This document shows, piece after piece, positions 36,560 to 60,997 of a stretch of 64,000 nucleotides of DNA. Source of the DNA: Chamaelirium japonicum (Eukaryota > Streptophyta > Magnoliopsida > Liliales > Melanthiaceae); NCBI GenBank assembly GCA_947650365.1, contig OX393552.1, positions 51,230,543-51,294,542 of the forward strand, read 5' to 3'. How positions within the stretch are numbered: position 1 is the stretch's first letter; the number at the start of each line of letters is the position of its first letter. Both the position numbers and the translations under genes were made by a program. A model generated the notes under the pieces. It was not told the origin of the DNA and made no database searches. It worked only from the letters and a program-made list of their open reading frames with translations.

Positions 36560-36679
36560 ATCTTTGGCGCCGTCTGTGGGATATCGATAGAGGTCTTACC
36601 CACACCTCTACCGACTCCTATTCAGCTTGTGGTGATGAGCCACAAGTCCTCCTCCAAATCAACCTCAACGCCATCATCA

Positions 36680-38352: not shown

Positions 38353-38529
38353 GAGAGATTGCAGCAATGGAGAAAAGAAAGTCAATGTAATACGTGGATG
38401 TATAATCGTAACGTCCGTGGGGCAACCTCTGAAAAAGTGTAACTGCAACTTTGTTATATCAACAAAGTGTCTTTTTTTTCTCAAAATCAAATCTCTCGAA
38501 GTTCGATTCCACCATATTAAGGCAAAAAA

Positions 38530-39205
38530 AAAGGGCTCCTGACAACGTAACCCAAGTCAACCGAAGATCTTCGATTCCGCCCATTCAAGTCGGAAGCTCG
38601 AAGGTAAGTCGGCTACGCCCTCTCGAGGCTAAAGTCCGATAAAAAGGCTCCTGGCAACCCAGGTCAACCAAAGACCTTCGATTCCGCCCATTCAAGTCGG
38701 AAGCTCGAAGGCAATTCGGCTACGCCCTCTCGAGGCTAAAGTCCGATAAAAAGGCTCCTGGCAACCCAGGTCAACCAAAGACCTTCGATTCCACCCATTC
38801 AAGTCGGAAGCTCGAAGGCAATTCGGTAACGCCCTTTCAAGGCAAAAGTCCGATAAAACGGCTCCTGGCAACCCAGGTCAATCAAAGACCTTCGATTCTC
38901 CCCATTCAAGTCGGAAGCTCGAAGGCAATTCGGCTACGCCCTCTCAAGGCTAAAGTCCGATAAAAGGCTCCTAGCAACCCAGGTCAACCAAAGACCTTCG
39001 ATTCCGCCCGTTCAAGTTGGAAGCTCGAAGGTAATTCGGGTACACCCTCTCGAGGCTAAAGTCCGATAAAAAGCTCCTGGTAACCCAGGTCAACCAAAGA
39101 CCTTCGATTCCACCCATTCAAGTCGGAAGCTCGAAGGCAATTTGGCTACGCCCTTTCAAGGCAAAAGTCAGATAAAAATGCTCCTGACAATCCAGGTCAA
39201 GCTAA
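38530..39205 (+). repeat. minisatellite, period about 107 bp, 6 copies
   Basis: The unit begins GGCTCCTGGCAACCCAGG and includes CCTTCGATTCCGCCC and GCTAAAGTCCGATAAA. The copies are well conserved. It lies just after gag, in the place where pol would be expected. Confidence 0.95.
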
Positions 39206-39239
39206 ACTATCAACTATATTTATCCGAGGCGATGAGAAT

Positions 39240-39795
39240 AAGTCCAAGGCAGACGTCGCCGCTTTGACATGCACCAAGTTCAAGGAGATATCCTTGGCAC
39301 TCGAAGATAAAGTCCGAGGTAACCAATGCCTCGGCAATCTATAAGCCCAAGGCCCTGCCCTTGGTACTCGAAGACATAGGCCGAGGCGACCAATGCCTCG
39401 GCACTCTACAAGCCCAAGGCCCAGCCCTTGGCACTCGAAGACAAAGTCCGAGGCAACCAGCGCCTCGGCACTCTACAAGCCCAAGGCCCTGCCCTTGGCA
39501 CTCGAAGACAAAGTCCGAGGCGACCAATGCCTCGGCACTCTACAAGCCCAAGGCCTAGCCCTTGGCACTCGAAGACAAAGTCCGAGGCGACCAGCGCCTC
39601 GGCACTCTACAAGCCCAAGGCACTAGCCCTTGGCACTTGAAGAAAAAGCTCGAGGCGACCAACGCCTTGGCACTCTACAAGCCCAAGGCCCAGCCCTTGG
39701 CATTCGAAGACAAAGTCCAAGACGTCGTCGCCGATGTATTGGCATTCGATCAAAAGTCCAAGCTTAGTCTTGTCACTCAGATCCAAGCATGAGAT
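39240..39795 (+). repeat. minisatellite, period about 67 bp, about 7 copies
   Basis: The unit contains AAGTCCGAGGCGACCA, GCCTCGGCACTCTACAAG and CCCAAGGCC. It gives apparent open frames in several phases, which are repeat artefacts. Confidence 0.95.
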
Positions 39796-40196
39796 TATCA
39801 CTGGCCATCACCTTTTTTTCAACGACTAACGGTTCCAAACCGGTCAGGGGGTGGTTGGTCTGACTCTGTCAGTGCGTGTCTCCACACTGGTGCAGTCGAC
39901 GATGGATAACACGGGATAAAATGGTGCTTCCTTGATTCTGGCCAAGTCAACACCCTCGCGTGACCGTAGTACCTGGCAAATACAGTAACCATGTGCGGTA
40001 GTACATTGGGTGAAGACTGGCTGGCCATCATGCGGCGTCATCCTAGATTATCTCTAAGAAGCCCCCTCGAATATAGCATTGTTCCTCGCCGACATCCCCG
40101 CGCACCAGCGTTTTACCGAAAAAGTGTCGATTTTAAATGGGGCTGAAATTCGAAAAACACACTATTTTCAATACCGACACTTTTTGGCCTCTTCTA
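39796..40196. other. gypsy interior, no gene recognised
   Basis: Non-coding sequence between two minisatellites. The words ACGACTAACGG and CACGCGAGGGTG-like pieces recur loosely near 40660-40760. Nothing else seen. Confidence 0.4.
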
Positions 40197-40498
40197 GCAG
40201 CCCCCCCTCGATTTCACACAAAAACCGAGTGGGGAAGGGGTGACGGCACACCATCAGCAGCACACCCCCTCAGTTTCGTCAGAAAACTGAGAGGGCGTGT
40301 GTGTTGGCATCAACAAGCAGCCCCCCCCCTCGGTTTCGCACAAAAATCGAGTGGGGAGGGGGGTGACGGCATACCATCAGCTACAACCACCCCTCGGTTT
40401 CGCAGAAAAACAAAGTGGGGAGGGTGCGACGGCACACCATCAGCAGCCCACCCCTCGGTTTCGATAGAAAACCGAGAGGGGGGGTGCTCGGCGCCATC
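40197..40498 (+). repeat. hairpin minisatellite, period about 61 bp, 5 copies
   Basis: Each unit holds CCCCCTCGGTTTCGCA facing AAACCGAGTGGGG, an imperfect stem of about 12 pairs, and then a GACGGCACACCATCAG spacer. All five units keep the stem despite base changes, some of them compensating (CTCAGTTT with AAACTGAG). Confidence 0.88.
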
Positions 40499-40879
40499 CA
40501 AACTTATTAGTCAATCCAATTCAAGTGGCATTCGCACACAAGGATCAGCCAAAGACGAAGAATTATCTTCCATTGGGATTGGTTGAATAGCATCTCCACC
40601 TAACCTATTGAGTTGGCCGTACAAACTTCACAAGCAAAATTCCTCCTTCTTATCTGGGGGTGGACTCGTGGTAACCGCCGCGTCATCACTAGGGCCCGAC
40701 TGTAGTCCCTAGTGAATACAGTAACTAGGTGCAGTCGGGTGTCGAACAGAGACGGATGAGTTACCGCGTATCGATGCCTCTTCAAGACACGCGTAGGACA
40801 CTCGGCCAACGCGTTCTTTAGAGTCATCTCTTTATGAAGGTGATTACCGAAAAAATTACTCGTCAAGGTATATGATGTT
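40499..40879. other. gypsy interior, no gene recognised
   Basis: Non-coding. A tract around 40590-40800 loosely resembles 39850-40000 in inverted sense. No open frame of note. Confidence 0.35.
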
Positions 40880-40971
40880 TCACGTCCACTTTGACCATTT
40901 TTTCAGCGCCTACACAACGGCACCTTATACGCATTCATCCGACGCACATATGAAAAGTTATGCCTGTCGAA
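40880..40971 (+). repeat. about 165-bp tandem repeat, first unit, split by CACTA-2
   Basis: CACGTCCACTTTGACC...TTTTCAGCGCCTAC...CCTTATACGCATTCATCCGACG...AAAAGTTATGCCTGTCG is cut after GAAAGT and resumes at 57927. Later units at 57985-58265 show the uninterrupted order (AGTCGGAAGTTTTCAAGG), which proves the insertion point. Confidence 0.9.
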
Positions 40972-40996
40972 AGTCACTACAACAAAGAGGGTCTTT

Positions 40997-41716
40997 ACCG
41001 ACGGACATTTTTATCACCGTCGGTAATAATACACTTTTTACCGACGGTGACAATAATATCCGTCGGTATTATAACTTCAATTTTTTAAATTTTTTTTGCA
41101 TATTTATTACCGACGGTCAAATAGTATTCGTCGGTACAATTATTTATACCGACGGTACATATATGTACCGTCGGTAATATACTTTATACCGACGGCTTCA
41201 TAAAGACCGTCGGTAAAATGTCATGACGGAACTCAGCGTAAAAACCAAGTCTCTGGAAAAAATAGAACCCTGAGTTTCGTCGGAGATTGTTACCGACGGA
41301 CTTTATATTTCCGTCGGTATAAATATTTATACCGACGGAGATTATATGGCCGTCGGTACGATACCGACGGTAATTAAATATCCGTCGGTAAAATTGTCCC
41401 GACGAAACTCAGGGTAAAAACCGAGCCTCTGGAAAAAAATGGAACCCTGAGTTTCGTCGGCGGTTTTTACCGACGGACTAAATATTTCCGTCGGCATAAC
41501 TAATTATACCGACGGAAATTATATGTCCGTCGGTACAATACCGACGGTAATTAAATATCCGTCGGTAAAATTGTCCCGACGAAACTCAGGGTGAAAACCC
41601 GAGCCTCTGGAAAAAATAGAACCCTGAGTTTCGTCGCTGATTTGTACCGACGGACATTATTATACCGTCGGTATAAAGTAATTATACCGACGGAAATTAT
41701 AGTTCCGTCGGTAAAA
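40997..41716. repeat. CACTA-2 5' subterminal repeats
   Basis: TACCGACGG and its complement CCGTCGGTA recur more than 20 times as close inverted pairs, each pair a short hairpin. A longer unit (ACGAAACTCAGGGTAAAAAC ... AACCCTGAGTTTCGTCGG) repeats three times (about 41225-41290, 41395-41460, 41575-41635). These are probable protein-binding sites. Confidence 0.93.
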
Positions 41717-42881
41717 ACTCCTTACTTATCCACCACATCCTGCACCCTTTTCTTTTTGTGTTTCGACTCCGGCGCGCGCCCCTCTCTCAATCTCTCTCTC
41801 TCTCATCGACCCGACCCCCCGGCGACCCCGTCCCCCTCCGGCAGCCCCGCGATCCCCTCCGGCCACCCATCCCCCTCCCGGCCACCCATCCCCCTCCCGA
41901 CCTCCGCCCCTCCCCGGCCTCCCGGCCCTCTCTCTCTCTCCCCGGCCTCCTCCCCCCCTCCCCGGCCTCCCTAGCAGCCTTCCCTCTCTTTCTCTTTCTC
42001 TCTCTCTCTCTCTCTACTTCACCTGTCTCTCTCTCTCTCGATCTAAACCCCCCCTCCGGCCGGCCACCCATCCCCTCCCTTGCACCTCCGGCCACCCCTC
42101 CGCTTTCTCGCGCCACCGACTACGACACCCATCCTCCTCCTTCTCGAGGCCTGCCGACCATCGCTGGTGAGCTCCTCCTCCTCCTCCCTTTCCCCCTTCG
42201 GTTAATTTGTGGTAATATATTGTGGTAATTTTTATTTAGGTAAAATCACAGGAATTAAATATAGTGTGGTATTGTGGTAATATATTGTGGTAATTTATTT
42301 AGGTAATATATTGTGGTAATTTTTATTAGGTAATTTATTGTGGTAATTTTTATCTTGTGGTAATATATTATGATTTACAACAATACCATAATTTGTGGTA
42401 ATATATTTGTGGTAATATATTGTGGTTAATTCCCTCATTTGGTAATTTTTACACTGTTTTAAAACTCGCCGAGTCGACTCGAAACTCGGCCGAGTTAACT
42501 CGACTCGGCTGAGTTTCGATCCGACTCGGTCCAAAACTCGAGTTTCGATCCGACTCGGCTGAGTTTCGATCCGACTCGAGTTTTGTCGGGTTTTAGCCGA
42601 GTTGTCGTGTCTACTCGACTCATTAAGGTTTCGAGTCGAGTCGAGTTTTCATGTTTTAAAACATTGATTTTTATCCTATCAAAACTGAATTGAATGGGGG
42701 GAAAAATGTAGTTTTTAGACTAGGGTGAGCGTCGGTTTTGTCGGTCGGTTTCGGTGTGGGTTTTGTCGGTTATATTTTTTTCGGTTTACGAAAAATCAAG
42801 ATCGAAACCGAAACTGTTTCATATTGTTTCATATGTAAATCTTAAATCTTACTGTTTCATATGTAAATTAAATTGTTTCAG
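41717..42881 (+). promoter_or_regulatory. presumed promoter, leader and 5' UTR intron of the CACTA-2 gene
   Basis: CT-rich leader-like sequence (about 41755-42175) ends in CATCGCTG|GTGAGC, a good donor. The acceptor TTGTTTCAG|ATGG lies directly before the start codon, so a 5' UTR intron of about 700 bp is likely. The intron has TGTGGTAATATATT repeats (42205-42430) and clustered GAGTTTCGATCCGACTCG words (42465-42650). No TATA box stands out. Confidence 0.4.
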
Positions 42882-44581
42882 ATGGCATCACGGTCATATG
42901 TTCGTAGAGGCAGAGGCAGAGGCAGGGGTGGGGTAGCTCAGAGCGCTCCGGCTGCCACCCCAGGGTCCGAGGCTGAGCCGTCCGGATCTGGTAGTGCTGT
43001 TCCTCTCTCCACACCAGCTCCTGCTGTGGTCACAGCCTCCGGAGCTTCGAGCAGTGCTCAGCACTCGGCTGCAGCGTCTACGCCCACAGGTAATGTTTAG
43101 ATCTAAAGTTTTATACATGTTGTAAATACTTCTTCAGTACTGATGTATATTTTATTTGCAGGGTCGACCAGGTACGTAGGCGACCGGGGCGTGACGACGG
43201 CCCGGCGCTTGTCGGCCTTACGCGAGCCGCTGTACCTACAGTGGAGCGGCCATACCTTTGTGGGCGAGCACGCTTCTGACGCCGCCACGTGGGTCGGCAT
43301 GATAGTACGGGAGGAGAGGAATGCCCCGATTGTGGGGTTAAGGGGGTGGAAGAACATTGATGCATCCTATAAGGAGAGGATGTATCAGCAGTTTTTGGTA
43401 CGTTAGTTTCATTAAAGCATTTTAGAATAATATCGTACTTCTTTATAATTTGATTTGATAAAATGACTTGTTTCTAAATTGATTTTACAGGAGAAATTTA
43501 AATGGGAGAACATGGAAACCGACACCCATCGGGAGGACTTGTGGAAGACGATGGGTGAGCGGTACAGGGATTACCGTCACGAGCTCTACAAGCTCTACGG
43601 TTACTTGGTCGGCCAGCCGGCTGAGGAGGTACAGGCTGCGGCTGGGACGAGAGACGCGCCACCGCTACACATTCTACAGTTTTTGGTCGCTCACTGGGCC
43701 ACCCCTAACTTTCAGGTATAATTATAATTTTGTTGATTCGTACTTGTTTTAATGTTATACTAAAAATTTGTATTGATGTTTCAAAATTTAATCGATTGCA
43801 CAGAATAAATCTGCTATAGGCAAGCAGAATAGAAGTGCCTCGACGACACCTGCTCCAGTGAAGGGGAGGACCTCCATGCCCCAGCTTGCCCAGCAGCTGG
43901 TAAATGATACAAACATTGTTATTATTTAAAGCTCTATACATGTTATATTAACTCGTCTATTTATTTTATATGTCCAACAGACACAGTCCTTGGGCCACGA
44001 GCCTAATAGGATTGACCTTTTTGAGGCCTCTAGGAGGCGGCGTATCGATGGGGCATTTCTGGACGACAGGGTTGCCTCGCAAGTGGTAAGTAATTAAATT
44101 ACTGTTAATATATTCTTATACATATGCCATAAAATATCATTGAATATCATTGGTTGTTTTTATATAGGAGAGGATGCGACTTATGGTGACCCCGTCGGGC
44201 GAGGCCGGCTCCTCCTCCAGCTCAGTATCTGTCGACTCAGCGATGGATACTGTGCTGAGACCTACCACGCACGGCCGTGTCCTCTGTACGGGCCTTGGAG
44301 TCACGCCCTCCTCCTACTTTGGACGAGAGGGTATGCGCTCGAGGGCACGGGACACCCAGACCGGTGCTATCACTCAGCTGCAGTCTGCGCTAGACGCGGA
44401 GCGAGAGCAGAGGCAGGCCCTCGAGCAGAGGATGGAGGCGGAGCGAGAGCAGAGGCAGGCCCTCGAGCAGAGGGTTGAGGCGGAGAAGAAGGCCCTCGAT
44501 GAGGAAAGAGAAGCTCGCAGGGAACTGGAGCGTAAATTTAATGAATTCATAAGCCGGTCTAGCGGTGGCTCATCCTCATGA
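42882..44581 (+). CDS. CACTA-2 second gene (plant Ptta/En/Spm transposase family), 6 coding exons, 427 aa
   Basis: Coding exons with GT-AG borders: 42882-43089, 43162-43397, 43491-43715, 43804-43899, 43981-44085 and 44168-44581. Together they make 1,284 nt in one uninterrupted frame. The N-terminus is RG-rich (RRGRGRGRGG) and low-complexity Ala/Ser/Pro. Exons 2-3 hold the Trp-rich core expected of PF03004-type proteins (LREPLYLQWSGH, GWKNIDASYKERMYQQFLEK, ERYRDYRHELYKLYGYL, AHWATPNFQ, then NKSAIGKQNR). The C-terminal exon has a predicted coiled coil of duplicated Glu/Arg/Gln heptads (EREQRQALEQRMEA), built from a 45-bp direct repeat. All junctions keep phase, so the gene looks functional in coding terms. 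It probably binds the subterminal TACCGACGG repeats; that is inference. The stop is followed four bases later by a splice donor. Confidence 0.85.
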
Positions 44582-44585
44582 TCAG

Positions 44586-47500
44586 GTACTTACTAATCTT
44601 TATAATATTAGCAAAAAATATGAATCTTACTAATTTGAGTTTTGATCATATTATCACACTTATGATTTTCCAACACTTAGACTATAAATCGGTAAATCGA
44701 ATCGTAAATGGTCACTCTCTCTCTCATGGTAATGATGTAGCCTCTGTTTTTCTTTTAAATACGGAATAATTCCAAGTTCGAATTACCGGATGCCGATCCG
44801 ATGACGATCGGATCGAATCCAAACCTATTTCATATCCGAAACACGCTAACTTATGATTTTCCAACACTTAGACTCTAAACCGGTGAATCGGAGCGTAAAT
44901 TGGTCAAATATCCAATTAGAACCCGCTCGCAAGTCCGAAATACGGAATAATTCCAACATCGAATTACCGGATGCCAATCCGATGACGATCGGATCGAATC
45001 CAAACCTATTTCATATCCGAAACACGCTAACTTATGATTTTCCAACACTTAGACTCTAAACCGGTGAATCAGAGCGTAAATTGGTCAAATATCCAATTAG
45101 AACCCGCTCGCAAGTCCGAAATACGGAATAATTCCAAGTTCGAATTACCGGATGCCGATCCGATGACGATCGGATCGAATCCAAACCTATTTCATATCCG
45201 AAACACGCTAACTTATGATTTTCCAACACTTAGACTCTAAACCGGTGAATCGGAGCGTAAATTGGTCAAATATCCAATTAGAACCCGCTCGCAAGTCCGA
45301 AATACGGAATAAATCCAACTTCGAATTATCGGATGCTGATCCGATGACGATCGGATCGAATCCAAACCTATTTCATATCCGAAACACGCTAACTTATGAT
45401 TTTCCAACACTTAGACTCTAAATCGGTGAATCGAAGCGTAAATTGGTCAAATATCCAATTAGAACCCGCTCGCAAGTCCGAAATACGGAATAATTCCAAG
45501 TTCGAATTATCGGATGCCGAGCCGATGACGATCCGATCGAATCCAAACCTATTTTATATCCGAAACACGCTAACTTATGATTTTCCAACACTTAGACTCT
45601 AAATCGGTGAATCGGAGCGTAAATTGGTCAAATATCCAATTAGAACCCGCTCGCAAGTCCGAAATACGGAATAATTCTAAGTTCGAATTATCGGATGCCG
45701 AGCCGATGACGATCCGATCGAATCCAAACCTATTTTATATCCGAAACACGCTAACTTATGATTTTCCAACACTTAGACTCTAAATCGGTGAATCGGAGCG
45801 TAAATTGGTCAAATATCCAATTAGAACCCGCTCGCAAGTCCGAAATACGGAATAATTCCAAGTTCGAATTATCGGATGCCGAGCCGATGACGATCCGATC
45901 GAATCCAAACCTATTTTATATCCGAAACACGCTAACTTATGATTTTCCAACACTTAGACTCTAAATCGGTGAATCGGAGCGTAAATTGGTCAAATATCCA
46001 ATTAGAACCCGCTCGCAAGTCCGAAATACGGAATAATTCCAACTTCGAATTATCGGATGCCGAGCCGATGACGATCCGATCGAATCCAAACCTATTTTAT
46101 ATCCGAAACACGCTAACTTATGATTTTCCAACACTTAGACTCTAAATCGGTGAATCGGAGCGTAAATTGGTCAAATATCCAATTAGAACCCGCTCGCAAG
46201 TCCGAAATACGGAATAATTCCAAGTTCGAATTATCGGATGCCGAGCCGATGACGATCCGATCGAATCCAAACCTATTTTATATCCGAAACACGCTAACTT
46301 ATGATTTTCCAACACTTACTCTAAATCGGTGAATCGGAGCGTAAATTGGTCAAATATCCAATTAGAACCCGCTCGCAAGTCCGAAATACGGAATAATTCC
46401 AACTTCGAATTACCGGATGCCGATCCGATGACGATCGGATCGAATCCAAACCTATTTCATATCCGAAACACGCTAACTTATGATTTTCCAACACTTAGAC
46501 TCTAAATCGGTGAATCGGAGCGTAAATTGGTCAAATATCCAATTAGAACCCGCTCGCAAGTCCGAAATACGGAATAATTCCAACTTCGAATTATCGGATG
46601 CCGAGCCGATGACGATCCGATCGAATCCAAACCTATTTTATATCCGAAACATGCTAACTTATGATTTTCCAACACTTAGACTCTAAATCGGTGAATCGGA
46701 GCGTAAATTGGTCAAATATCCAATTAGAACCCGCTCGCAAGTCCGAAATACGGAATAATTCCAACTTCGAATTACCGGATGCCGATCCGATGACGATCGG
46801 ATCGAATCCAAACCTATTTCATATCCGAAACACGCTAACTTATGATTTTCCAACACTTAGACTCTAAATCGGTGAATCGGAGCGTAAATTGGTCAAATAT
46901 CCAATTAGAACCCACTCGCAAGTCCGAAATACGGAATAATTCCAAGTTCGAATTATCGGATGCCGAGCCGATGACGATCCGATCGAATCCAAACCTATTT
47001 TATATCCGAAAACTTATGATTTTCCAACACTTAGACTCTAAATCGGTGAATCGGAGCGTAAATTGGTCAAATATCCAATTAGAACCCACTCGCAAGTCCA
47101 AAATTCGGAATAATTCCAAGTTCGAATTATCGAATGCCGATCCGATGACGATCCGATCGAATCCAAACCTATTTTATATCCGAAACACGCTAACTTATGA
47201 TTTTCCAACACTTAGACTCTAAATCGGTGAATCGGAGCGTAAATTGGTCAAATATCCAATTAGAACCCGCTCGCAAGTCCGAAATACGGAATAATTCCAA
47301 GTTCGAATTATCGGATGCCGAGCCGATGACGATCCGATCGAATCCAAACCTATTTTATATCCGAAACACGCTAACTTATGATTTTCCAACACTTAGACTC
47401 TAAATCGGTGAATCGGAGCGTAAATTGGTCAAATATCCAATTAGAACCCGCTCGCAAGTCCGAAATACGGAATAATTCCAAGTTCGAATTATCGGATGCC

Positions 47501-50500
47501 GAGCCGATGACGATCCGATCGAATCCAAACCTATTTTATATCCGAAACACGCTAACTTATGATTTTCCAACACTTAGACTCTAAATCGGTGAATCGGAGC
47601 GTAAATTGGTCAAATATCCAATTAGAACCCGCTCGCAAGTCCGAAATACGGAATAATTCCAACTTCGAATTATCGGATGCCGAGCCGATGACGATCCGAT
47701 CGAATCCAAACCTATTTTATATCCGAAACACGCTAACTTATGATTTTCCAACACTTAGACTCTAAATCGGTGAATCGGAGCGTAAATTGGTCAAATATCC
47801 AATTAGAACCCGCTCGCAAGTCCGAAATACGGAATAATTCCAAGTTCGAATTATCGGATGCCGAGCCGATGACGATCCGATCGAATCCAAACCTATTTTA
47901 TATCCGAAACACGCTAACTTATGATTTTCCAACACTTAGACTCTAAATCGGTGAATCGGAGCGTAAATTGGTCAAATATCCAATTAGAACCCGCTCGCAA
48001 GTCCGAAATACGGAATAATTCCAAGTTCGAATTATCGGATGCCGAGCCGATGACGATCCCATCGAATCCAAACCTATTTTATATCCGAAACACGCTAACT
48101 TATGATTTTCCAACACTTAGACTCTAAATCGGTGAATCGGAGCGTAAATTGGTCAAATATCCAATTAGAACCCGCTCGCAAGTCCGAAATACAGAATAAT
48201 TCCAAGTTCGAATTATCGGATGCCGAGCCGATGACGATCCGATCGAATCCAAACCTATTTTATATCCGAAACACGCTAACTTATGATTTTCCAACACTTA
48301 GACTCTAAATCGGTGAATCGGAGCGTAAATTGGTCAAATATCCAATTAGAACCCGCTCGCAAGTCCGAAATACGGAATAATTCCAACTTCGAATTACCGG
48401 ATGCCGATCCGATGACGATCGGATCGAATCCAAACCTATTTCATATCCGAAACACGCTAACTTATGATTTTCCAACACTTAAACTCTAAATCGGTGAATC
48501 GGAGCGTAAATTGGTCAAATATCCAATTAGAACCCGCTCGCAAGTCCGAAATACGGAATAATTCCAAGTTCGAATTATCGGATGCCGAGCCGATGACGAT
48601 CCGATCGAATCCAAACCTATTTTATATCCGAAACACGCTAACTTATGATTTTCCAACACTTAGACTCTAAATCGGTGAATCGGAGCGTAAATTGGTCAAA
48701 TATCTAATTAGAACCCGCTCGCAAGTCCGAAATACGGAATAATTCCAAGTTCGAATTATCGGATGCCGATCCGATGACGATCCGATCGAATCCAAACCTA
48801 TTTTATATCCGAAACACGCTAACTTATGATTTTCCAACACTTAGACTCTAAATCGGTGAATCGGAGCGTAAATTGGTCAAATATCCAATTAGAACCCGCT
48901 CGCAAGTCCGAAATACGGAATAATTCCAACTTCGAATTACCGGATGCCGATCCGATGACGATCGGATCGAATCCAAACCTATTTCATATCCGAAACACGC
49001 TAACTTATGATTTTCCAACACTTAGACTCTAAATCGGTGAATCGGAGCGTAAATTGGTCAAATATCCAATTAGAACCCGCTCGCAAGTCCGAAATACGGA
49101 ATAATTCCAAGTTCGAATTATCGGATGCCGAGCCGATGACGATCCGATCGAATCCAAACCTATTTTATATCTGAAACACGCTAACTTATGATTTTCCAAC
49201 ACTTAGACTCTAAATCGGTGAATCGGAGCGTAAATTGGTCAAATATCCAATTAGAACCCGCTCGCAAGTCCGAAATACGGAATAATTCCAAGTTCGAATT
49301 ATCGGATGCCGAGCCGATGACGATCCGATCGAATCCAAACCTATTTTATATCCGAAACACGCTAACTTATGATTTTCCAACACTTAGACTCTAAATCGGT
49401 GAATCGGAGCGTAAATTGGTCAAATATCCAATTAGAACCCGCTCGCAAGTCCGAAATACGGAATAATTCCAAGTTCGAATTATCGGATGCCGATCCGATG
49501 ACGATCGGATCGAATCCAAACCTATTTCATATCCGAAACACGCTAACTTATGATTTTCCAACACTTAGACTCTAAATCGGTGAATCGGAGCGTAAATTGG
49601 TCAAATATCCAATTAGAACCCGCTCGCAAGTCCGAAATACGGAATAATTCCAAGTTCGAATTATCGGATGCCGAGCCGATGACGATCCGATCGAATCCAA
49701 ACCTATTTTATATCCGAAACACGCTAACTTATGATTTTCCAACACTTAGACTCTAAATCGGTGAATCGGAGCGTAAATTGGTCAAATATCCAATTAGAAC
49801 CCGCTCGCAAGTCCGAAATACGGAATAATTCCAACTTCGAATTACCGGATGCCGATCCGATGACGATCCGATCGAATCCAAACCTATTTCATATCCGAAA
49901 CACGCTAACTTATGATTTTCCAACACTTAGACTCTAAATCGGTGAATCAGAGCGTAAATTGGTTAAATATCCAATTAGAACCCGCTCGCAAGTCCGAAAT
50001 ACGGAATAATTCCAACTTCGAATTACCGGATGCCGATCCGATGACGATCGGATCGAATCCAAACCTATTTCATATCCGAAACACGCTAACTTATGATTTT
50101 CCAACACTTAAACTCTAAATCGGTGAATCGGAGCGTAAATTGGTCAAATATCCAATTAGAACCCGCTCGCAAGTCCGAAATACGGAATAATTCCAAGTTC
50201 GAATTATCGGATGCCGAGCCGATGACGATCCGATCGAATCCAAACCTATTTTATATCCGAAACACGCTAACTTATGATTTTCCAACACTTAGACTCTAAA
50301 TCGGTGAATCGGAGCGTAAATTGGTCAAATATCTAATTAGAACCCGCTCGCAAGTCCGAAATACGGAATAATTCCAAGTTCGAATTATCGGATGCCGAGC
50401 CGATGACGATCCGATCGAATCCAAACCTATTTTATATCCGAAACACGATAACTTATGATTTTCCAACACTTAGACTCTAAATCGGTGAATCGGAGCGTAA

Positions 50501-53500
50501 ATTGGTCAAATATCCAATTAGAACCCGCTCGCAAGTCCGAAATACGGAATAATTCCAACTTCGAATTACCGGATGCCGATCCGATGACGATCGGATCGAA
50601 TCCAAACCTATTTCATATCCGAAACACGCTAACTTATGATTTTCCAACACTTAGACTCTAAATCGGTGAATCGGAGCGTAAATTGGTCAAATATCCAATT
50701 AGAACCCGCTCGCAAGTCCGAAATACGGAATAATTCCAAGTTCGAATTATCGGATGCCGAGCCGATGACGATCCGATCGAATCCAAACCTATTTTATATC
50801 CGAAACACGCTAACTTATGATTTTCCAACACTTAGACTCTAAATCGGTGAATCGGAGCGTAAATTGGTCAAATATCCAATTAGAACCCGCTCGCAAGTCC
50901 GAAATACGGAATAATTCCAAGTTCGAATTATCGGATGCCGAGCCGATGACGATCCGATCGAATCCAAACCTATTTTATATCCGAAACACGCTAACTTATG
51001 ATTTTCCAACACTTAGACTCTAAATCGGTGAATCGGAGCGTAAATTGGTCAAATATCCAATTAGAACCCGCTCGCAAGTCCGAAATACGGAATAATTCCA
51101 ACTTCGAATTACCGGATGCCGATCCGATGACGATCGGATCGAATCCAAACCTATTTCTTATCCGAAACACGCTAACTTATGATTTTCCAACACTTAGACT
51201 CTAAATCGGTGAATCGGAGCGTAAATTGGTCAAATATCCAATTAGAACCCGCTCGCAAGTCCGAAATACGGAATAATTCCAAGTTCGAATTATCGGATGC
51301 CGAGCCGATGACGATCCGATCGAATCCAAACCTATTTTATATCCGAAACACGCTAACTTATGATTTTCCAACACTTAGACTCTAAATCGGTGAATCGGAG
51401 CGTAAATTGGTCAAATATCCAATTAGAACCCGCTCGCAAGTCCGAAATACGGAATAATTCCAACTTCGAATTACCGGATGCCGATCCGATGACGATCGGA
51501 TCGAATCCAAACCTATTTCATATCCGAAACACGCTAACTTATGATTTTCCAACACTTAGACTCTAAATCGGTGAATCGGAGCGTAAATTGGTCAAATATC
51601 CAATTAGAACCCGCTCGCAAGTCCGAAATACGGAATAATTCCAAGTTCGAATTATCGGATGCCGAGCCGATGACGATCCGATCGAATCCAAACCTATTTT
51701 ATATCCGAAACACGCTAACTTATGATTTTCCAACACTTAGACTCTAAATCGGTGAATCGGAGCGTAAATTGGTCAAATATCTAATTAGAACCCGCTCGCA
51801 AGTCTGAAATACGGAATAATTCCAAGTTCGAATTATCGGATGCCGATCCGATGACGATCCGATCGAATCCAAACCTATTTTATATCTGAAACACGCTAAC
51901 TTATGATTTTCCAACACTTAGACTCTAAATCGGTGAATCGGAGCGTAAATTGGTCAAATATCCAATTAGAACCCGCTCGCAAGTCCGAAATACGGAATAA
52001 TTCCAACTTCGAATTACCGGATGCCGATCCGATGACGATCGGATCGAATCCAAACCTATTTCATATCCGAAACACGCTAACTTATGATTTTCCAACACTT
52101 AGACTCTAAATCGGTGAATCGGAGCGTAAATTGGTCAAATATCCAATTAGAACCCGCTCGCAAGTCCGAAATACGGAATAATTCCAAGTTCGAATTATCG
52201 GATGCCGAGCCGATGACGATCCGATCGAATCCAAACCTATTTTATATCCGAAACACGCTAACTTATGATTTTCCAACACTTAGACTCTAAATCGGTGAAT
52301 CGGAGCGTAAATTGGTCAAATATCCAATTAGAACCCGCTCGCAAGTCCGAAATACGGAATAATTCCAAGTTCGAATTATCGGATGCCGAGCCGATGACGA
52401 TCCGATCGAATCCAAACCTATTTTATATCCGAAACACGCTAACTTATGATTTTCCAACACTTAGACTCTAAATCGGTGAATCGGAGCGTAAATTGGTCAA
52501 ATATCCAATTAGAACCCGCTCGCAAGTCCGAAATACGGAATAATTCCAAGTTCAAATTATCGGATGCCGATCCGATGACGATCGGATCGAATCCAAACCT
52601 ATTTCATATCCGAAACACGCTAACTTATGATTTTCCAACACTTAGACTCTAAATCGGTGAATCGGAGCGTAAATTGGTCAAATATCCAATTAGAACCCGC
52701 TCGCAAGTCCGAAATACGGAATAATTCCAAGTTCGAATTATCGGATGCCGAGCCGATGACGATCCGATCGAATCCAAACCTATTTTATATCCGAAACACG
52801 CTAACTTATGATTTTCCAACACTTAGACTCTAAATCGGTGAATCGGAGCGTAAATTGGTCAAATATCCAATTAGAACCCGCTCGCAAGTCCGAAATACGG
52901 AATAATTCCAACTTCGAATTACCGGATGCCGATCCGATAACGATCCGATCGAATCCAAACCTATTTCATATCCGAAACACGCTAACTTATGATTTTCCAA
53001 CACTTAGACTCTAAATCGGTGAATCGGAGCGTAAATTGGTCAAATATCCAATTAGAACCCGCTCGCAAGTCCGAAATACGGAATAATTCCAACTTCGAAT
53101 TACCGGATGCCGATCCGATGACGATCGGATCGAATCCAAACCTATTTCATATCCGAAACACGCTAACTTATGATTTTCCAACACTTAAACTCTAAATCGG
53201 TGAATCGGAGCGTAAATTGGTCAAATATCCAATTAGAACCCGCTCGCAAGTCCGAAATACGGAATAATTCCAAGTTCGAATTATCGGATGCCGAGCCGAT
53301 GACGATCCGATCGAATCCAAACCTATTTCATATCCGAAACACGCTAACTTATGATTTTCCAACACTTAGACTCTAAATCGGTGAATCGGAGCGTAAATTG
53401 GTCAAATATCTAATTAGAACCCGCTCGCAAGTCCGAAATACGGAATAATTCCAAGTTCGAATTATCGGATGCCGAGCCGATGACGATCCGATCGAATCCA

Positions 53501-56500
53501 AACCTATTTTATATCCGAAACACGCTAACTTATGATTTTCCAACACTTAGACTCTAAATCGGTGAATCGGAGCGTAAATTGGTCAAATATCCAATTAGAA
53601 CCCGCTCGCAAGTCCGAAATACGGAATAATTCCAACTTCGAATTACCGGATGCCGATCCGATGACGATCGGATCGAATCCAAACCTATTTCATATCCGAA
53701 ACACGCTAACTTATGATTTTCCAACACTTAGACTCTAAATCGGTGAATCGGAGCGTAAATTGGTCAAATATCCAATTAGAACCCGCTCGCAAGTCCGAAA
53801 TACGGAATAATTCCAAGTTCGAATTATCGGATGCCGAGCCGATGACGATCCGATCGAATCCAAACCTATTTTATATCCGAAACACGCTAACTTATGATTT
53901 TCCAACACTTAGACTCTAAATCGGTGAATCGGAGCGTAAATTGGTCAAATATCCAATTAGAACCCGCTCGCAAGTCCGAAATACGGAATAATTCCAAGTT
54001 CGAATTATCGGATGCCGAGCCGATGACGATCCGATCGAATCCAAACCTATTTTATATCCGAAACACGCTAACTTATGATTTTCCAACACTTAGACTCTAA
54101 ATCGGTGAATCGGAGCGTAAATTGGTCAAATATCCAATTAGAACCCGCTCGCAAGTCCGAAATACGGAATAATTCCAACTTCGAATTACCGGATGCCGAT
54201 CCGATGACGATCGGATCGAATCCAAACCTATTTCTTATCCGAAACACGCTAACTTATGATTTTCCAACACTTAGACTCTAAATCGGTGAATCGGAGCGTA
54301 AATTGGTCAAATATCCAATTAGAACCCGCTCGCAAGTCCGAAATACGGAATAATTCCAAGTTCGAATTATCGGATGCCGAGCCGATGACGATCCGATCGA
54401 ATCCAAACCTATTTTATATCCGAAACACGCTAACTTATGATTTTCCAACACTTAGACTCTAAATCGGTGAATCGGAGCGTAAATTGGTCAAATATCCAAT
54501 TAGAACCCGCTCGCAAGTCCAAAATACGAAATAATTCCAACTTCGAATTACCGGATGCCGATCCGATGACGATCGGATCGAATCCAAACCTATTTCATAT
54601 CCGAAACACGCTAACTTATGATTTTCCAACACTTAGACTCTAAATCGGTGAATCGGAGCGTAAATTGGTCAAATATCCAATTAGAACCCACTCGCAAGTC
54701 CGAAATACGGAATAATTCCAAGTTCGAATTATCGGATGCCGAGCCGATGACGATCCGATCGAATCCAAACCTATTTTATATCCGAAAACTTATGATTTTC
54801 CAACACTTAGACTCTAAATCGGTGAATCGGAGCGTAAATTGGTCAAATATCCAATTAGAACCCACTCGCAAGTCCGAAATTCGGAATAATTCCAAGTTCG
54901 AATTATCGAATGCCGATCCGATGACGATCCGATCGAATCCAAACCTATTTTATATCCGAAACACGCTAACTTATGATTTTCCAACACTTAGACTCTAAAT
55001 CGGTGAATCGGAGCGTAAATTGGTCAAATATCCAATTAGAACCCGCTCGCAAGTCCGAAATACGGAATAATTCCAAGTTCGAATTATCGGATGCCGAGCC
55101 GATGACGATCCGATCGAATCCAAACCTATTTTATACCGAAACACGCTAATTTATGATTTTCCAACACTTAGACTCTAAATCGGTGAATCGGAGCGTAAAT
55201 TGGTCAAATATCCAATTAGAACCCGCTCGCAAGTCCGAAATACGGAATAATTCCAAGTTCGAATTATCGGATGCCGAGCCGATGACGATCCAATCGAATC
55301 CAAACCTATTTTATATCCGAAACACGCTAACTTATGATTTTCCAACACTTAGACTCTAAATCGGTGAATCGGAGCGTAAATTGGTCAAATATCCAATTAG
55401 AACCCGCTCGCAAGTCCGAAATACGGAATAATTCCAAGTTCGAATTATCGGATGCCGAGCCGATGACGATCCGATCGAATCCAAACCTATTTTATATCCG
55501 AAACACGCTAACTTATGATTTTCCAACACTTAGACTCTAAATCGGTGAATCGGAGCGTAAATTGGTCAAATATCCAATTAGAACCCGCTCGCAAGTCCGA
55601 AATATGGAATAATTCCAAGTTCGAATTATCGGATGCCGAGCCGATGACGATCCGATCGAATCCAAACCTATTTTATATCCGAAACACGCTAACTTATGAT
55701 TTTCCAACACTTAGACTCTAAATCGGTGAATCGGAGCGTAAATTGGTCAAATATCCAATTAGAACCCGCTCGCAAGTCCGAAATACGGAATAATTCCAAG
55801 TTCGAATTATCGGATGCCGAGCCGATGACGATCCAATCGAATCCAAACCTATTTTATATCCGAAACACGCTAACTTATGATTTTCCAACACTTAGACTCT
55901 AAATCGGTGAATCGGAGCGTAAATTGGTCAAATATCCAATTAGAACCCACTCGCAAGTCCGAAATACGGAATAATTCCAAGTTCGAATTATCGGATGCCG
56001 AGCCGATGACGATCCGATCGAATCCAAACCTATTTTATATCCGAAACACGCTAACTTATGATTTTCCAACACTTAGACTCTAAATCGGTGAATCGGAGCG
56101 TAAATTGGTCAAATATCCAATTAGAACCCGCTCGCAAGTCCGAAATACGGAATAATTCCAACTTCGAATTACCGGATGCCGATCCGATGACGATCGGATC
56201 GAATCCAAACCTATTTCATATCCGAAACACGCTAACTTATGATTTTCCAACACTTAAACTCTAAATCGGTGAATCGGAGCGTAAATTGGTCAAATATCCA
56301 ATTAGAACCCGCTCGCAAGTCCGAAATACGGAATAATTCCAAGTTCGAATTATCGGATGCCGAGCCGATGACGATCCGATCGAATCCAAACCTATTTTAT
56401 ATCCGAAACACGCTAACTTATGATTTTCCAACACTTAGACTCTAAATCGGTGAATCGGAGCGTAAATTGGTCAAATATCTAATTAGAACCCGCTCGCAAG

Positions 56501-57036
56501 TCCGAAATACGGAATAATTCCAAGTTCGAATTATCGGATGCCGAGCCGATGACGATCCGATCGAATCCAAACCTATTTTATATCCGAAACACGCTAACTT
56601 ATGATTTTCCAACACTTAGACTCTAAATTTGTGAATCGGAGCGTAAATTGGTCAAATATCCAATTAGAACCCGCTCGCAAGTCCGAAATTCGGAATAATT
56701 CCAAGTTCGAATTATCGAATGCCGATCCGATGACGATCCGATCGAATCCAAACCTAGCTATTTGATATCCGAAACACGCTAAGTTATGATTTTTCAACAC
56801 TTAGACTCTAAATCGGTGAATCGGAGCGTAAATTGGTCAAATATCCAATTAGAACCCGCTCGCAAGTCTAAAATACGGAATAATTCCAAGTTCGAATTAT
56901 CGGATGCCGATAATTCTACGATCGGATCGAATCCAAACCTATTTCAAAATCGAAACACGCTAACTTATCATTTTTTAACGCTTAGACTCAGTTATAGATA
57001 TAAACCATTTTTTTAACAAATACATGTTAATTGCAG
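44586..57036 (+). other. predicted 12.45-kb 3' UTR intron containing the satellite
   Basis: TGATCAG|GTACTTAC gives a strong donor at 44586, directly behind the stop codon. TTAATTGCAG at 57027-57036 is a good acceptor after the array. The same layout (donor just behind the stop) is seen in CACTA-1. Splicing is inferred. Confidence 0.5.
44658..57000 (+). repeat. 181-bp satellite array, about 68 units, 12.3 kb
   Basis: Head-to-tail units begin CTTATGATTTTCCAACACTT. Nearly all are exactly 181 bp; a few are shorter by 2-7 bases. Units fall into two main types that differ at linked sites: type A with GCCGAGCCGATGACGATCCG and TTTTATAT, and type B with GCCGATCCGATGACGATCGG and TTTCATAT. Recombinant types also occur. 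The first unit and the last two are the most diverged, the usual mark of array edges. Most units contain a 68-codon open frame (MIFQHLDSKSVNRSVNWSN...), but because 181 is not a multiple of three the frames do not join. Many CGATCGGATCG-like palindromes occur per unit. Confidence 0.98.
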
Positions 57037-57040
57037 GAGC

Positions 57041-57164
57041 AGGGCGGCGTCAGGGGATCGATGAGAGCACCAGCGTTGGTGGTGGGCGGGCGTGGTTGAG
57101 ATAGGGCGGCGTCAGGGGATCGATGAGAGCACCGGCGTTGGTGGCGGGCGGGGGTGGTTGAGAT
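57041..57164 (+). repeat. 62-bp tandem duplication downstream of the satellite
   Basis: AGGGCGGCGTCAGGGGATCG starts both units (57041 and 57103), with a few base differences. It lies in the predicted last, non-coding exon of the CACTA-2 gene. Confidence 0.93.
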
Positions 57165-57417
57165 AGGACATGTATCATCTCTCAGTTCTGGATTGTGTAA
57201 ATATTATTTTGTAATATATGGTTATTTTTTGTTCTTGTCTATAATTGTCGGCCGAGAACTGTGGTAATATTTGATAATTTGCTGTAATTTTTTATCAATT
57301 TAGGTAATATTTTATAAATTGTGGTAATATTTGATAAATTGTGGTAATATATTGTGGTATTGAATCACAGGAATTAAATAACATTATTTAGGTAAATTTA
57401 TTAAAAAAAAAAAATAC
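57165..57417. other. CACTA-2 3' region with TGTGGTAATAT repeats
   Basis: TTGTGGTAATATTTGATAAA-type repeats and AATCACAGGAATTAAATA match the 5' UTR intron at 42205-42300 in direct orientation. No gene. Confidence 0.6.
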
Positions 57418-57905
57418 TTATTACCGACGGAAATTAATTATTCCGTCGGTAATAATATTTTTATTTTTTTTAAATTATTAATGATTTGCCGACGGCATAT
57501 AATATCCGTCGGTAATATATATAGTATTACCGACGGTTATATGAATTTGGTCGGTAATATATATATTATTACCGACGGGTAATATATATATGTGTCGGTA
57601 ATATATATATTATTACCGACAGTATGAAATATACCCGTCGGTAAAATGGTTATATATTACCGACGGATTCTTATATTTCGTCGGCAATACTAAATTATAT
57701 TAGTTTTAAATTGATTAAATATTACCGACGGCGTTAATATTACCGTCGGTATTAATTATTATTACCGACGGTAATATTTGGTCCGTCGTATTGTTTTCCC
57801 CGACGCCTTCTTTCCCGACAGCAAGCGACGGAAATACCTTCCGTCGCTATAGAATATTACCGACGAAATTTTAATATTACCGACGGATAGTGTCCGTCGG
57901 TAATA
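57418..57905. repeat. CACTA-2 3' subterminal repeats
   Basis: TACCGACGG/CCGTCGGTA pairs as at the 5' end, about 14-18 words, some decayed (TGTGTCGGTAAT). They extend to within about 20 bases of the terminus. Confidence 0.92.
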
Positions 57906-57926
57906 ACTGTTTTTTTTGTAGTGAGT

Positions 57927-58265
57927 TTTCAAAGTCTTTTTCTCCGAATACATGCATTGGAAATATTACACGCAAAGGTGCCCGACGCTTTACGTCCACT
58001 TTTACCAGTTTTTCAGCGCCTACGCAACAACGCCTTATACGCATTGATCTGACGCGTGTATAAAAAGTTATAACAGTCGGAAGTTTTCAAGGCCTTTTCC
58101 TCCGAAGGCAGGCATCCGAAAGGTCACACGTCAAGGTGTGCGATGTTTCACGTCCACTTTGACCGATTTTTCGACTCCGACACAACGACACCTTATACGC
58201 GTTGATCCGACGTGTGTATGAAAAGTTATGACTGTCGGAAGACTTCGAGACTCTTACACGGAGGG
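57927..58265 (+). repeat. about 165-bp tandem repeat, remaining units of the gypsy element
   Basis: It continues the unit interrupted at 40974 and adds nearly two more. Shared words are ACGTCCACTTT, CCTTATACGC, AAAAGTTAT and GTCGGAAG. Confidence 0.88.
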
Positions 58266-58303
58266 AAAGATTACAGAGGAAGTTGATCACGAGCATTGAT
58301 CTC

Positions 58304-59210
58304 ATGGCCTCCGTTGCTGCCTTCTCGGGTTCCATCTCCCTGCACACAATCATCCCCCGCGAGCCCGGAACGGCCCAGATCAGCGCCACCAGGCATCTGG
58401 AATCCTCGCCGGTGGCCTAAATACCTCCCCAGCGGCGATTGATGGCGAGGCCCGTTCGCACCGTGGAACCGCATCGTAGGAGCGAGTCGGCCGCCCCCTT
58501 TGGCCGCCGCGGCGACGACGGCGGGGGTGGAGGGCCCGGAGAGGACGAGGGAGGAAGAGGGTCTCGATTGCGAGAAGCTCGCGGCGGAGCTGGAGCACGC
58601 CTCCCCTCTTACGATCATGGATCGAGCCCTCGAGCGGTTCGGGAACGACATCGCCATCACCTTCAGTGGAGCGGAAGATGTCGCATTGATCAAATACGCT
58701 CGGCTGACAGACCGGCCTTTCAGGGTCTTCAGCCTCGACACCGGCCGGCTGAACCCGGAGACCTACAGGTTCTTCGACGCCGTGGAGAAGCACTACAACA
58801 TCCACATCGAGTACATGTTCCCGGACGCAGTGGAGGTGCAGGGGCTCGTGAGGACCAAGGGTCTCTTCTCGTTCTACGAAGACGGGCACCAGGAGTGCAG
58901 CAGGGTGCGGAAGGTGAGGCCGCTGAGGCGGGCCCTCAAGGGCTTGGATCACCAGCCAGCGCAAGGATCAATCCCCGGGGACCAGAGCCCACATCCCCGT
59001 TGTTCAGGTCGACCCTCGAAGGCATGGACGGCGAAGCCGGTAGCCTGATCAAGTGGAATCCCGTCGTGAACGTCGACGGCAAGGACATCTGGAGTTTCCT
59101 CCGAACCATGGATGTCCCCGTCAACTCCCTGCACTCACAAGGCTACGTGTCGATCGGGTGCGAGCCGTGCACGAGGCCGGTTCCTGCCGGGGCAGCAAAG
59201 AGAGAGAAAG
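58304..59210 (+). pseudogene. captured plant APS reductase (APR) copy, broken
   Basis: From 58304 the sequence reads like a plastid transit peptide (MASVAAFSGSISLH) and then the reductase domain: [111 protein letters not shown] and [14 protein letters not shown]. In plants this plastid enzyme reduces adenosine 5'-phosphosulfate to sulfite. The copy is dead: a stop ends the transit peptide, the frame shifts about four times, and the Cys-Cys of the iron-sulfur motif is Cys-Ser. The sequence stops right after GCEPCTRPV, losing the ECGLH active site and the glutaredoxin/thioredoxin-like domain. No intron is apparent over 900 bp. It lies inside the gypsy element, same strand as gag, so it was probably captured through RNA. 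Confidence 0.88.
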
Positions 59211-59279
59211 GAAAAAGAGAGAGAGACGTCTGCTCTCTCGCACCCGCTCTCTCTCGCATGGATCCCTTCTCTCACCAAG

Positions 59280-59566
59280 GGCTCTCTCTCGCACCCGCTC
59301 TCTCTCGCATGGGTCTTCTCTCTCGCCGAAGGCTCTCTCTCGCACCCGCTCTCTCTCGCACGGAGCCTGCCTCGCAACCGACCCGATCGGCCGAGCCGCC
59401 CTTCGTCGCCCGCGTCGCCTAGGGCTCTCTCTCGTACCCGCTCTCTCTCGCATGGGTCTTCTCTCTCGCCGAAGGCTCTCTCTCGCACCCGCTCTCTCTC
59501 GCACGGAGCCTGCCTCGCAACCGACCCGATCGGCCGAGCCGCCCTTCGTTGCCCGCGTCGCCTAGA
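59280..59566 (+). repeat. 143-bp tandem duplication, CT-rich
   Basis: GCTCTCTCTCGCACCCGC starts at 59281 and again at 59424, each unit running to GCGTCGCCTAG. The units differ at two or three bases. An extra CTCTCTCGCA-type prefix lies before it from 59230. It follows the truncated APR copy directly. Confidence 0.93.
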
Positions 59567-60003
59567 CCCTACGGCCCGACACCGTCGCCTGCCCCGCGCC
59601 CGGACTGATCACCTCCTCCCGTGCCGCAGCCCGACACAACCGCTCGTTGGCCTCCACGCTGCTGCTGCTGTTGTTGTTGCATCGCGCGAACCAGAGCCCG
59701 ACAAAACAAAAAAAAAAACCGAGACAGAGAAACGAAAACCAAAGAAAGGAAAGAGAGGGCGGGGTAGCTGTAGCCTCACGTGAATGCATGAAAGCTGAAA
59801 AGGAAAGAGAGAGAGAGAAAGGAAAGAGAGAGCGGGGTAGCTGCAGCCACACGTGAATGAAAAAGAATGGAAAGAGAGAGAGCGGGGTGCAGCCTCACGT
59901 GAACAAAAGCAAAAAAAAACCAAAGAGGAAAGCTAAAAAAAGGAAAGAGGGAAGCAAAGAAAGGAAAGAGAGAAAGAGAGAAAAGTTGTTCTTTCACCAA
60001 AAG
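59567..60003. repeat. purine-rich tract with three imperfect repeats
   Basis: AAAGAGAGAGCGGGGTAGCTG with CCTCACGTGAAT recurs about three times (59755-59905) within an A/G-rich stretch. The open frames across it are composition artefacts. Confidence 0.75.
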
Positions 60004-60240
60004 GGTCTTGGTACCCTCTCGGTACCCTCTCGGTATGCTCTCGGTATCCACTCGGTCGGAAAACACACTGCTTTTTCGGAAACACACCCTTGCAAAACCG
60101 AGACTTTTTGGCTTGCACCAAAAGGTACCCTCTCGGTATGCTCTCGGTACCCTCTCGGTATCCACTCGGTCGGAAAACACACTGCTTTTTCGAAAACGCC
60201 CCCTTGCAAAACCGAGACTTTTGGCCCGCACCAAAAGGGT
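60004..60240 (+). repeat. 114-bp tandem duplication with an inner 11-bp repeat
   Basis: GGAAAACACACTGCTTTTTCG is found at 60058 and 60172 and is preceded by runs of GGTACCCTCTC/GGTATGCTCTC. The inner words repeat three to five times per unit. Confidence 0.92.
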
Positions 60241-60381
60241 CTCGGCATCGGCAAAAGGAGACTCTGCTAATGCGAACCGCGGCACCGACAGCCCTTGCTA
60301 ACCACGCCAGGATCCTAAGGCGTTTGCACCTCGGAATCCCAGCCGACCCAGGGGGTCCTGACCCGACTGGGAGGGGGTAAC

Positions 60382-60997
60382 TGTGGGTGCAAAAATTGTA
60401 CCGGACCGGATCAGAGCGGCATGGGCCCGCGCAACGGCCCAAGTGGGTAAGCCCGCCCGGGTTCATGGGCCCACTCTACGAGGCTCGCAGATCAAGCCCT
60501 CCCCCTTATTGGGCCCGAACAACGACCCAATAAGGGCCCAGCAAGGAGGCCCAGAACCAGTGCCACGTCATCATCGCCACGTCATCACTGCCATATCGGG
60601 CACGTGCCTACGCTATAAAAGGACCCCCAAGGCATCCAGGAAGGGGGTTGGTCATTCAATCAGGGACGAAGAGGGATTCCAGATCCAGAGCCAGAGCCCT
60701 CTATTCTCCCCACCTTGTTCTCTTCTAGTTGCTCCGTGCAACCCCACTGTACGAAGCTTCTCTCGGCCTGTCGAGAGAACGCTCAACCCTTTATATTCAA
60801 ATTATAGTGAAGATCAGGTGGCACCTCTCGCCCGGAGACGTAGGTCGTAAGACCGAACTCCGTCACCAATCCTTGTGTCATCGCTCTTTACTCTCTCTAT
60901 CTATTCTCCCATCTCTCTAACTCTACAAACAATCCAATTCAATCAAGGCTGTGGGGTGGGATTCTCGATCAAGGCGGCTCGAAAATTTCCCCCCACA
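60382..60997 (+). repeat. 3' LTR of the gypsy element
   Basis: Same length as the 5' LTR, starting TGTGGGTGCAAAAATTG and ending CCCCACA. The purine tract GGGAGGGGG lies just before it, and the TSD CGTCC follows at 60998-61002. Confidence 0.95.

Follow-up and report, generated by a model that had tools for sequence, protein, structure and literature searches.

Where satellite DNA arises, and how one satellite reaches all the chromosomes of a genome, is an old question, and it is raised again by an array of 181-bp units that lies inside a CACTA transposon in the 64,000-nucleotide stretch of Chamaelirium japonicum DNA analysed here (the window). Such an array could be the private growth of a single transposon copy, a component of a whole transposon family, or the founder of satellite arrays that exist without any transposon. 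We consider it very probable that the satellite is a regular component of a CACTA (En/Spm) family and mainly transposon cargo, the introns that hold it being predicted and its length being taken as assembled. Cut-and-paste transposition by the transposase of the family would spread the arrays, while within a given copy unequal exchange or slippage would add or remove whole units between fixed edges. Placement in an intron, from which the array would be spliced out, would make this load tolerable to the element, and occasionally the arrays would serve as sites of rearrangement, giving rise, at one locus, to an inverted ORF2 pair and to consecutive copies of a 3.3-kb module. The case thereby keeps apart two steps that tend to be merged, namely spread with the transposon, for which the evidence is good, and release from it, of which nothing was seen apart from one rearranged locus.

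The CACTA element of the window (Table 1) opens with CACTACAACAAAG at 40975 and ends in ...TTTTTTGTAGTG at 57923; in a motif search its terminal inverted repeats appear as CACTACAACAAAG at 40975 and TTTTGTAGTG at 57923. It is flanked by the target-site duplication AGT (40972-40974 and 57924-57926), and a 3-bp duplication accompanies all five elements for which both ends were fetched, that of the window included. The terminal motifs and the duplication confirm the intact ends that an earlier note on this DNA had described. Short subterminal repeats, ACCGACGG and CCGTCGGT, occur in both orientations and are dense at both element ends. The sole gene found within the element is ORF2, which has its stop codon at 44579-44581 and encodes a protein matching Pfam Transposase_24 (PF03004, E 1.2e-16). 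The same note had placed a CACTA gene beside the array; a gene does adjoin it, and this gene is TNPA-like (PF03004) rather than a tnp2 transposase. No match to the TNPD (tnp2) transposase was found within the window or in the sister element g3, and as TNPD is present in relatives, the window element is filed as a non-autonomous member of the CACTA (En/Spm) family. Fuller relatives also carry a second, minus-orientation 181-bp array, and neither this array nor the TNPD gene was found in the corresponding interval of the window (42169..42880). Both were therefore most likely lost, and from its sequence the element looks like a deletion derivative.

Table 1. Positions of the CACTA element, its parts and its host retrotransposon in the window
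Feature	Position	Strand	Basis or detail
LTR retrotransposon hosting the CACTA element	35944..60997	+	LTR alignment
CACTA element, apparently a non-autonomous deletion derivative, 16,949 bp	40975..57923	+	terminal motifs, sequence
5' terminal and subterminal region	40975..41720	+	ACCGACGG x13, CCGTCGGT x11
Predicted 5' untranslated exon	41721..42168	+	sequence and position in relatives; 41721 is a segment cut point, not a mapped start
Predicted intron 1	42169..42880	+	comparison with fuller relatives
ORF2 gene, TNPA-like protein, 427 aa, six predicted exons	42881..44585	+	PF03004 and GT/AG junctions
ORF2 predicted exons	42881-43089, 43162-43397, 43491-43715, 43804-43899, 43981-44085, 44168-44585	+	
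Predicted last intron, 3' untranslated region, encloses the entire array	44586..57036	+	donor CAG/GTACTTAC, acceptor TTAATTGCAG/GAGCAG
Right-hand 181-bp satellite array	44655..56989	+	truncated extra unit from 44655, just before the main array; then 67 full monomers in 44757-56989
Predicted 3' untranslated exon, two 62-bp repeats	57037..57380	+	sequence; 57380 is a segment cut point, not a mapped end
3' subterminal repeats and 3' terminus	57381..57923	+	ACCGACGG x7, CCGTCGGT x5

With a donor at 44586 on its left and an acceptor that extends to 57036 on its right, the array would, in the simplest reading, fill a predicted 12.4-kb last intron that follows the stop codon. The donor GT is retained in eight of the nine other ORF2 copies checked. 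ORF2 is open and has intact splice sites in the window and in the elements g1, g3, g4a, g4b and g8; it is broken in g2A, g2B, g4c and g5a. The intron end on the 3' side of the array (window 56990-57036) is unusually well kept. Its 47 bp are 100% identical in most copies read, one of them with an ORF2 of 94.7% identity, and in g5a and g5b the intron end shows 97.7-97.9% identity.

The array itself is highly regular. Tandem Repeats Finder reports a period of 181, 67.7 copies and 97% matches (44757-56989), wrap-around alignment resolves 67 full monomers and two partial ones, and the lag identity within the array is 0.91 at 181 vs 0.30 at 180. The claim of about 68 head-to-tail copies between the ORF2 gene and the 3' subterminal repeats is thus borne out, and with 67 full units at 97% the array is long, homogeneous and head-to-tail, as a satellite is. 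Elsewhere in the window the unit has no match with E below 2.8. Two monomer classes, A (the consensus) and B (set apart by five diagnostic changes, at positions 108, 118, 129, 142 and 163 of the unit), are interspersed irregularly, with mixed monomers between them, and 38 of the 67 full monomers have an identical twin in the array. Repetition also extends over many units: a perfect 995-bp match recurs after exactly 17 units (a lag of 3,077 bp), and further repeated stretches are found at lags of 8, 9 and 12 units. Diverged edges around a homogeneous centre, which had likewise been proposed, are evident from the nearest-neighbour distances, which are 3, 3, 4, 3 and 13 for the three first and two last full monomers, whereas full monomers 6 to 62 average 0.46 (edge monomers against the rest, Mann-Whitney p = 1.7e-5). 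Exchange of whole units between fixed edges would produce this pattern, as it keeps the centre homogeneous and lets the edges decay.

Several proposals regarding the unit were considered and rejected. A role as a TNPA binding array is contradicted by the subterminal ACCGACGG/CCGTCGGT motifs, which occur 0 times in unit and array. The 69-aa open frame present in each unit is a mechanical list entry and not a gene inside the array. Compensatory A/B changes in the inverted repeat of class B (CGATCCGAT GACG ATCGGATCG) were dismissed, as class A disrupts the repeat.

The whole-genome search that the earlier note had called for places the unit at many other positions, so that it is not confined to the element of the window. 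The searched assembly comprises 1,518,659,071 bases (1.52 Gb) in 3,253 contigs, and those of the contigs C1 to C12 with listed sizes measure 70-137 Mb. A 401-bp array query gave 40 full-length matches, in which every contig from C1 to C12 is represented. For an exact 44-mer taken from the unit, 24,238 occurrences were counted, its listed places not including some arrays that are present in fetched stretches, and a 40-mer of the unit with at most three mismatches has 51,280 matches; taken as one unit per match, these would add up to some 9.3 Mb, about 0.6% of the assembly. The right-hand array edge (43 bp of intron end, at most two mismatches) was matched 1,606 times, the donor-side edge (44 bp, at most three mismatches) less often, at 1,240 places, and the 28-bp 3' terminus (at most two mismatches) 1,505 times; backwards-read controls for the unit, right-edge, donor-edge and 3'-end patterns gave 0 matches each. 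With ORF2 as query, 1,753 first-look candidates were obtained, and the 40 of these that were scored, among them the copy of the window, are 100% identical after rounding (bit scores 3190-3213). The CACTA family is large, and 40 of its members have almost the same ORF2. Its expansion appears to have distributed unit copies by the tens of thousands across the genome, and as the ancestry of an array can be read from the element itself (roughly 1,500-1,600 counted ends), the rate and mode of array growth become measurable.

In fuller elements the order of parts is TIR, 5' untranslated exon, TNPD, left array (minus), the TNPA-like ORF2, right array (plus), 3' untranslated exon and TIR, with both arrays placed in predicted introns. 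The TNPD of one relative matches tnp2 (PF02992, E 1e-97), and TNPD sequence, whole or partial, is present in eight non-duplicate elements, none of them the window element or g3. The left array is built from the same 181-bp unit in the orientation opposite to that of the right array, and its place is on the 5' side of ORF2, following TNPD in those elements that have it. It was found in seven of ten assessable elements (g1, g3, g4a, g4b, g5a, g8 and the locus at 89.25 Mb of C1) and is absent from the window element, g2A and g5b; g2B and g4c were left out of the left-array and TNPD counts. The right array is present in each of 12 annotated elements, which come from 10-kb stretches chosen for unit or array-edge matches. 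Among the papers listed in a literature search we recognised no report of opposite satellite arrays around a CACTA ORF2. Mutual homogenisation of the left and right arrays of one element was rejected as an explanation, as 4 of 720 pairings, counting the true one, attain the mean left-right distance within elements, and shared descent explains this equally.

The history of the array can be compared directly with that of its carrier. Across ten elements, right-array monomer distance and ORF2 distance are closely correlated (Mantel r 0.974, p 0.0002), and they remain so when the two most divergent elements are removed (r 0.909, p 0.005, n = 8). Array divergence tracks ORF2 divergence, which argues that the satellite descends with the transposon; it has travelled with the element at least since the common ancestor of ORF2 copies about 20% apart.

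This leaves the first origin of the unit, for which the capture of a free genomic satellite by a CACTA ancestor is a serious possibility, even if we hold it to be the less probable course; it would concern the origin only and is compatible with the satellite being cargo. The best alignment of the unit to the rest of element g1 scores 24.3 bits, and 60 shuffled units reach up to 28.2. Derivation of the unit from another part of the element, tested on g1, is rejected on this ground, and a foreign source would fit the result. The occurrence of the unit at two places of the element in opposite orientation would likewise suit a capture. Against it speaks that none of the loci read contained a free array from which the unit could have come. 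In addition, arrays and ORF2 co-diverge out to ORF2 distances of about 20%, so that any capture would have to be older than the sampled family.

A transposon-born satellite might already have founded independent arrays that live without the element, for example at centromeres, and the earlier note had suggested that the element could seed such arrays elsewhere. The 51,280 genome-wide unit matches would leave room for them. In order to examine the surroundings of individual arrays, 20 stretches of C1 at listed unit matches were fetched, together with eight 3.4-kb loci around the best matches and seven further stretches, two of which overlap the 3.4-kb loci. Twenty arrays were dissected, including that of the window, with g6 and g7 dropped as duplicates of g2 and g1; all 17 non-duplicate arrays touch CACTA parts, and the arrays read at the additional loci are likewise joined to such parts. 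At each of the eight 3.4-kb loci, chosen by similarity to a segment near the array end, the array is followed by the intron end, the 3' UTR and the CACTA 3' end.

A broader view is given by the places listed on C1 up to about 116.4 Mb, where 60 donor edges and 98 3' ends were set against 100 right edges. An exact 3' TIR lies 0.8-1.0 kb downstream of 72 of the 100 exact right edges, and 81 are accompanied by at least one of two exact markers, a CACTA 3' end downstream or an intron donor upstream. The remaining 19 have neither marker. Five of them were read, and all five are attached to CACTA (494251 and 5204048, which are duplicates, and three from the rearranged region at 89.27 Mb); the other 14, outside the loci read, would be candidates for free arrays. 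Viewed from the opposite side, 26 of the 98 exact 3' ends are without an exact right edge, and 10 of the 60 donor-side edges have none within 30 kb; these unmatched ends may represent mutated edges or array-free copies. Along C1 the 100 listed right edges range over 0-116 Mb, with 3 to 21 of them per 10-Mb bin and the fullest bin at 80-90 Mb, a spread on this contig that would speak against independent arrays. The same follows from the ratio of units to right edges, which is 31.9 genome-wide vs 37.7 in the fetched sample (415 units, 11 edges; 34.6, or 415 to 12, if the right edge of g4a, just outside its stretch, is added). Because the genome-wide ratio does not exceed that of the sample, a large pool of free arrays is unlikely; a modest number may exist, as the sample of dissected arrays is small and was drawn by similarity to that of the window, and as the lists of places extend to about the first 100. 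The proposed seeding of independent arrays was thus not borne out, and we consider it improbable that the satellite has already founded arrays of its own.

An indication in favour of such a release comes from a rearranged locus at C1:89,248,001-89,288,000. It contains two ORF2 copies that are 98.4% identical and stand head to head, with their joint inside an array; these are followed by a row of three blocks, each made up of array, intron end and 3' UTR. Two comparable modules of 3.3-3.5 kb are 98.6% identical, and the joint between 3' UTR and array falls in a short run common to both. Two head-to-head copies joined inside an array would point to an inverted duplication or to an exchange between two copies. 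A plain inversion of ORF2 by recombination between opposite arrays was rejected, as this would not account for the two copies present. The arrays thus appear to act as sites of rearrangement, and this locus is the sole step seen toward an array leaving its element. Elsewhere on the same contig, the segments C1:411-504 kb and C1:5192-5283 kb share CACTA elements with equal array lengths in opposite orientation, which is either an inverted segmental duplication or an assembly duplicate.

We speculate that the opposite arrays around ORF2 could be more than passive cargo, namely a selected part of the element, although this seems to us quite unlikely. Opposite arrays would be complementary in the pre-mRNA, so that one long hairpin could form and loop out the TNPA-like exons. 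If this were true, the hairpin could promote back-splicing or exon skipping between TNPD and TNPA products, or give rise to small RNAs through which the element adjusts its activity; the inverted arrangement would in turn make the arrays a rearrangement engine. The mirror-image intronic arrays therefore give a testable prediction of RNA structure.

Among eleven near-identical sister elements, one of them that of the window, which were identified by the joint use of array-query and ORF2-query matches, the right array ranges from 18.2 to 68.15 units, and nine of the eleven lengths are a whole number plus 0.17-0.24 units. The lengths of 50 arrays between exact edges on C1 cluster in phase (Rayleigh p about 3e-9) around a median of 30 units, and five are at least as long as that of the window; the 50 lengths are mostly edge-to-edge measurements rather than arrays read through, and insertions may be part of some of the longest. 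Over 3,338 aligned bases from the 5' terminus, ORF2 and the 3' part, the window element is separated from g3 by 8 differences, and the two show 98.9-99.3% identity in the 5' exon and intron 1. Their right arrays have 68 and 18 units, respectively, a gap of 50 units, and the left array is absent from the window and 6.9 units long in g3. From these products we infer whole-unit growth and loss between fixed edges, as by unequal exchange or slippage. The idea that the satellite had grown inside the transposon hence stands insofar as its length changes within elements, mostly by whole units; it does not stand in the sense of an array new in the window copy, as co-divergence argues for inheritance with the family. 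That the array or its 68-unit length is an assembly artefact is very improbable, for a long, 97% identical array and identical elements at two places of C1 (g1/g7, g2/g6) would fit such an error, but the private monomer variants in resolved order and the many different lengths at 50 places of C1, five of them at least as long, do not.

The closest precedent found is the CACTA-like element Jozin of quinoa. As described in the available part of the report, Jozin is 16.5 kb long and carries 32.5 copies of a 171-bp unit near its 3' end; the array is common to several elements, and its FISH signal is dispersed along the chromosomes of Chenopodium quinoa (PMC8978399). The same part gives one array per element, favours capture and mentions a related array without CACTA in another species (PMC8978399). 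Both systems consist of CACTA elements with an internal array of satellite length near the 3' end and a unit common to several elements. In contrast to Jozin as described there, two opposite arrays surround ORF2 in seven of ten assessable elements of the present family, the arrays are placed in predicted introns, co-divergence with the element was measured, and units and edges were counted genome-wide. A further satellite from the same genus as quinoa, CficCl-61-40, starts, according to the part of its report available to us, from a piece of about 40 bp of the Jozin transposase gene in the tnp2 region (PMC7320549). There too a CACTA family is tied to a major satellite, whereas the unit studied here matches no other part of its element above chance (element g1).

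Arrays carried by other classes of transposable elements offer a wider comparison. In Lathyrus sativus, the accessible text describes short arrays inside dispersed LTR retrotransposons, some of which have expanded, mainly in primary constrictions (PMC7004042). The likeness lies in arrays carried inside dispersed transposable elements; the carrier here is a CACTA element and not an LTR retrotransposon, and position was viewed at the listed places on C1 only. The foldback element Tetris of Drosophila virilis has, in the portion of the paper at hand, internal tandem repeats of about 220 bp in up to 66 copies, which sit in the terminal inverted repeats and gave rise to longer satellite-like arrays in heterochromatin (PMC4079207). 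Tetris is likewise a DNA transposon with a long internal tandem array, whereas the arrays described here are internal and flank ORF2, and no free arrays were met in the loci read.

The LTR retrotransposon into which the CACTA element of the window is inserted has LTRs that align at 35943-36559 vs 60381-60997, with 11 of 617 bases differing, and is flanked by the 5-bp duplication CGTCC (35939-35943 and 60998-61002). Its gag (PF03732) contains an in-frame stop, and it holds internal tandem repeats of 107 bp x 6.1 (38549-39200) and 67 bp x 6.4 (39292-39718). Between the CACTA element and the 3' LTR, at about 58560-58990, lies a fragment of phosphoadenosine phosphosulfate reductase (PF01507, E 1.3e-21), apparently a gene piece carried by the retrotransposon. 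Further upstream, the window contains a plant invertase/pectin methylesterase inhibitor gene on the minus strand at 33.9-34.5 kb (PF04043, E 4.3e-28) and a 2.1-kb tandem duplication of 91.8% identity at 10303-14537.
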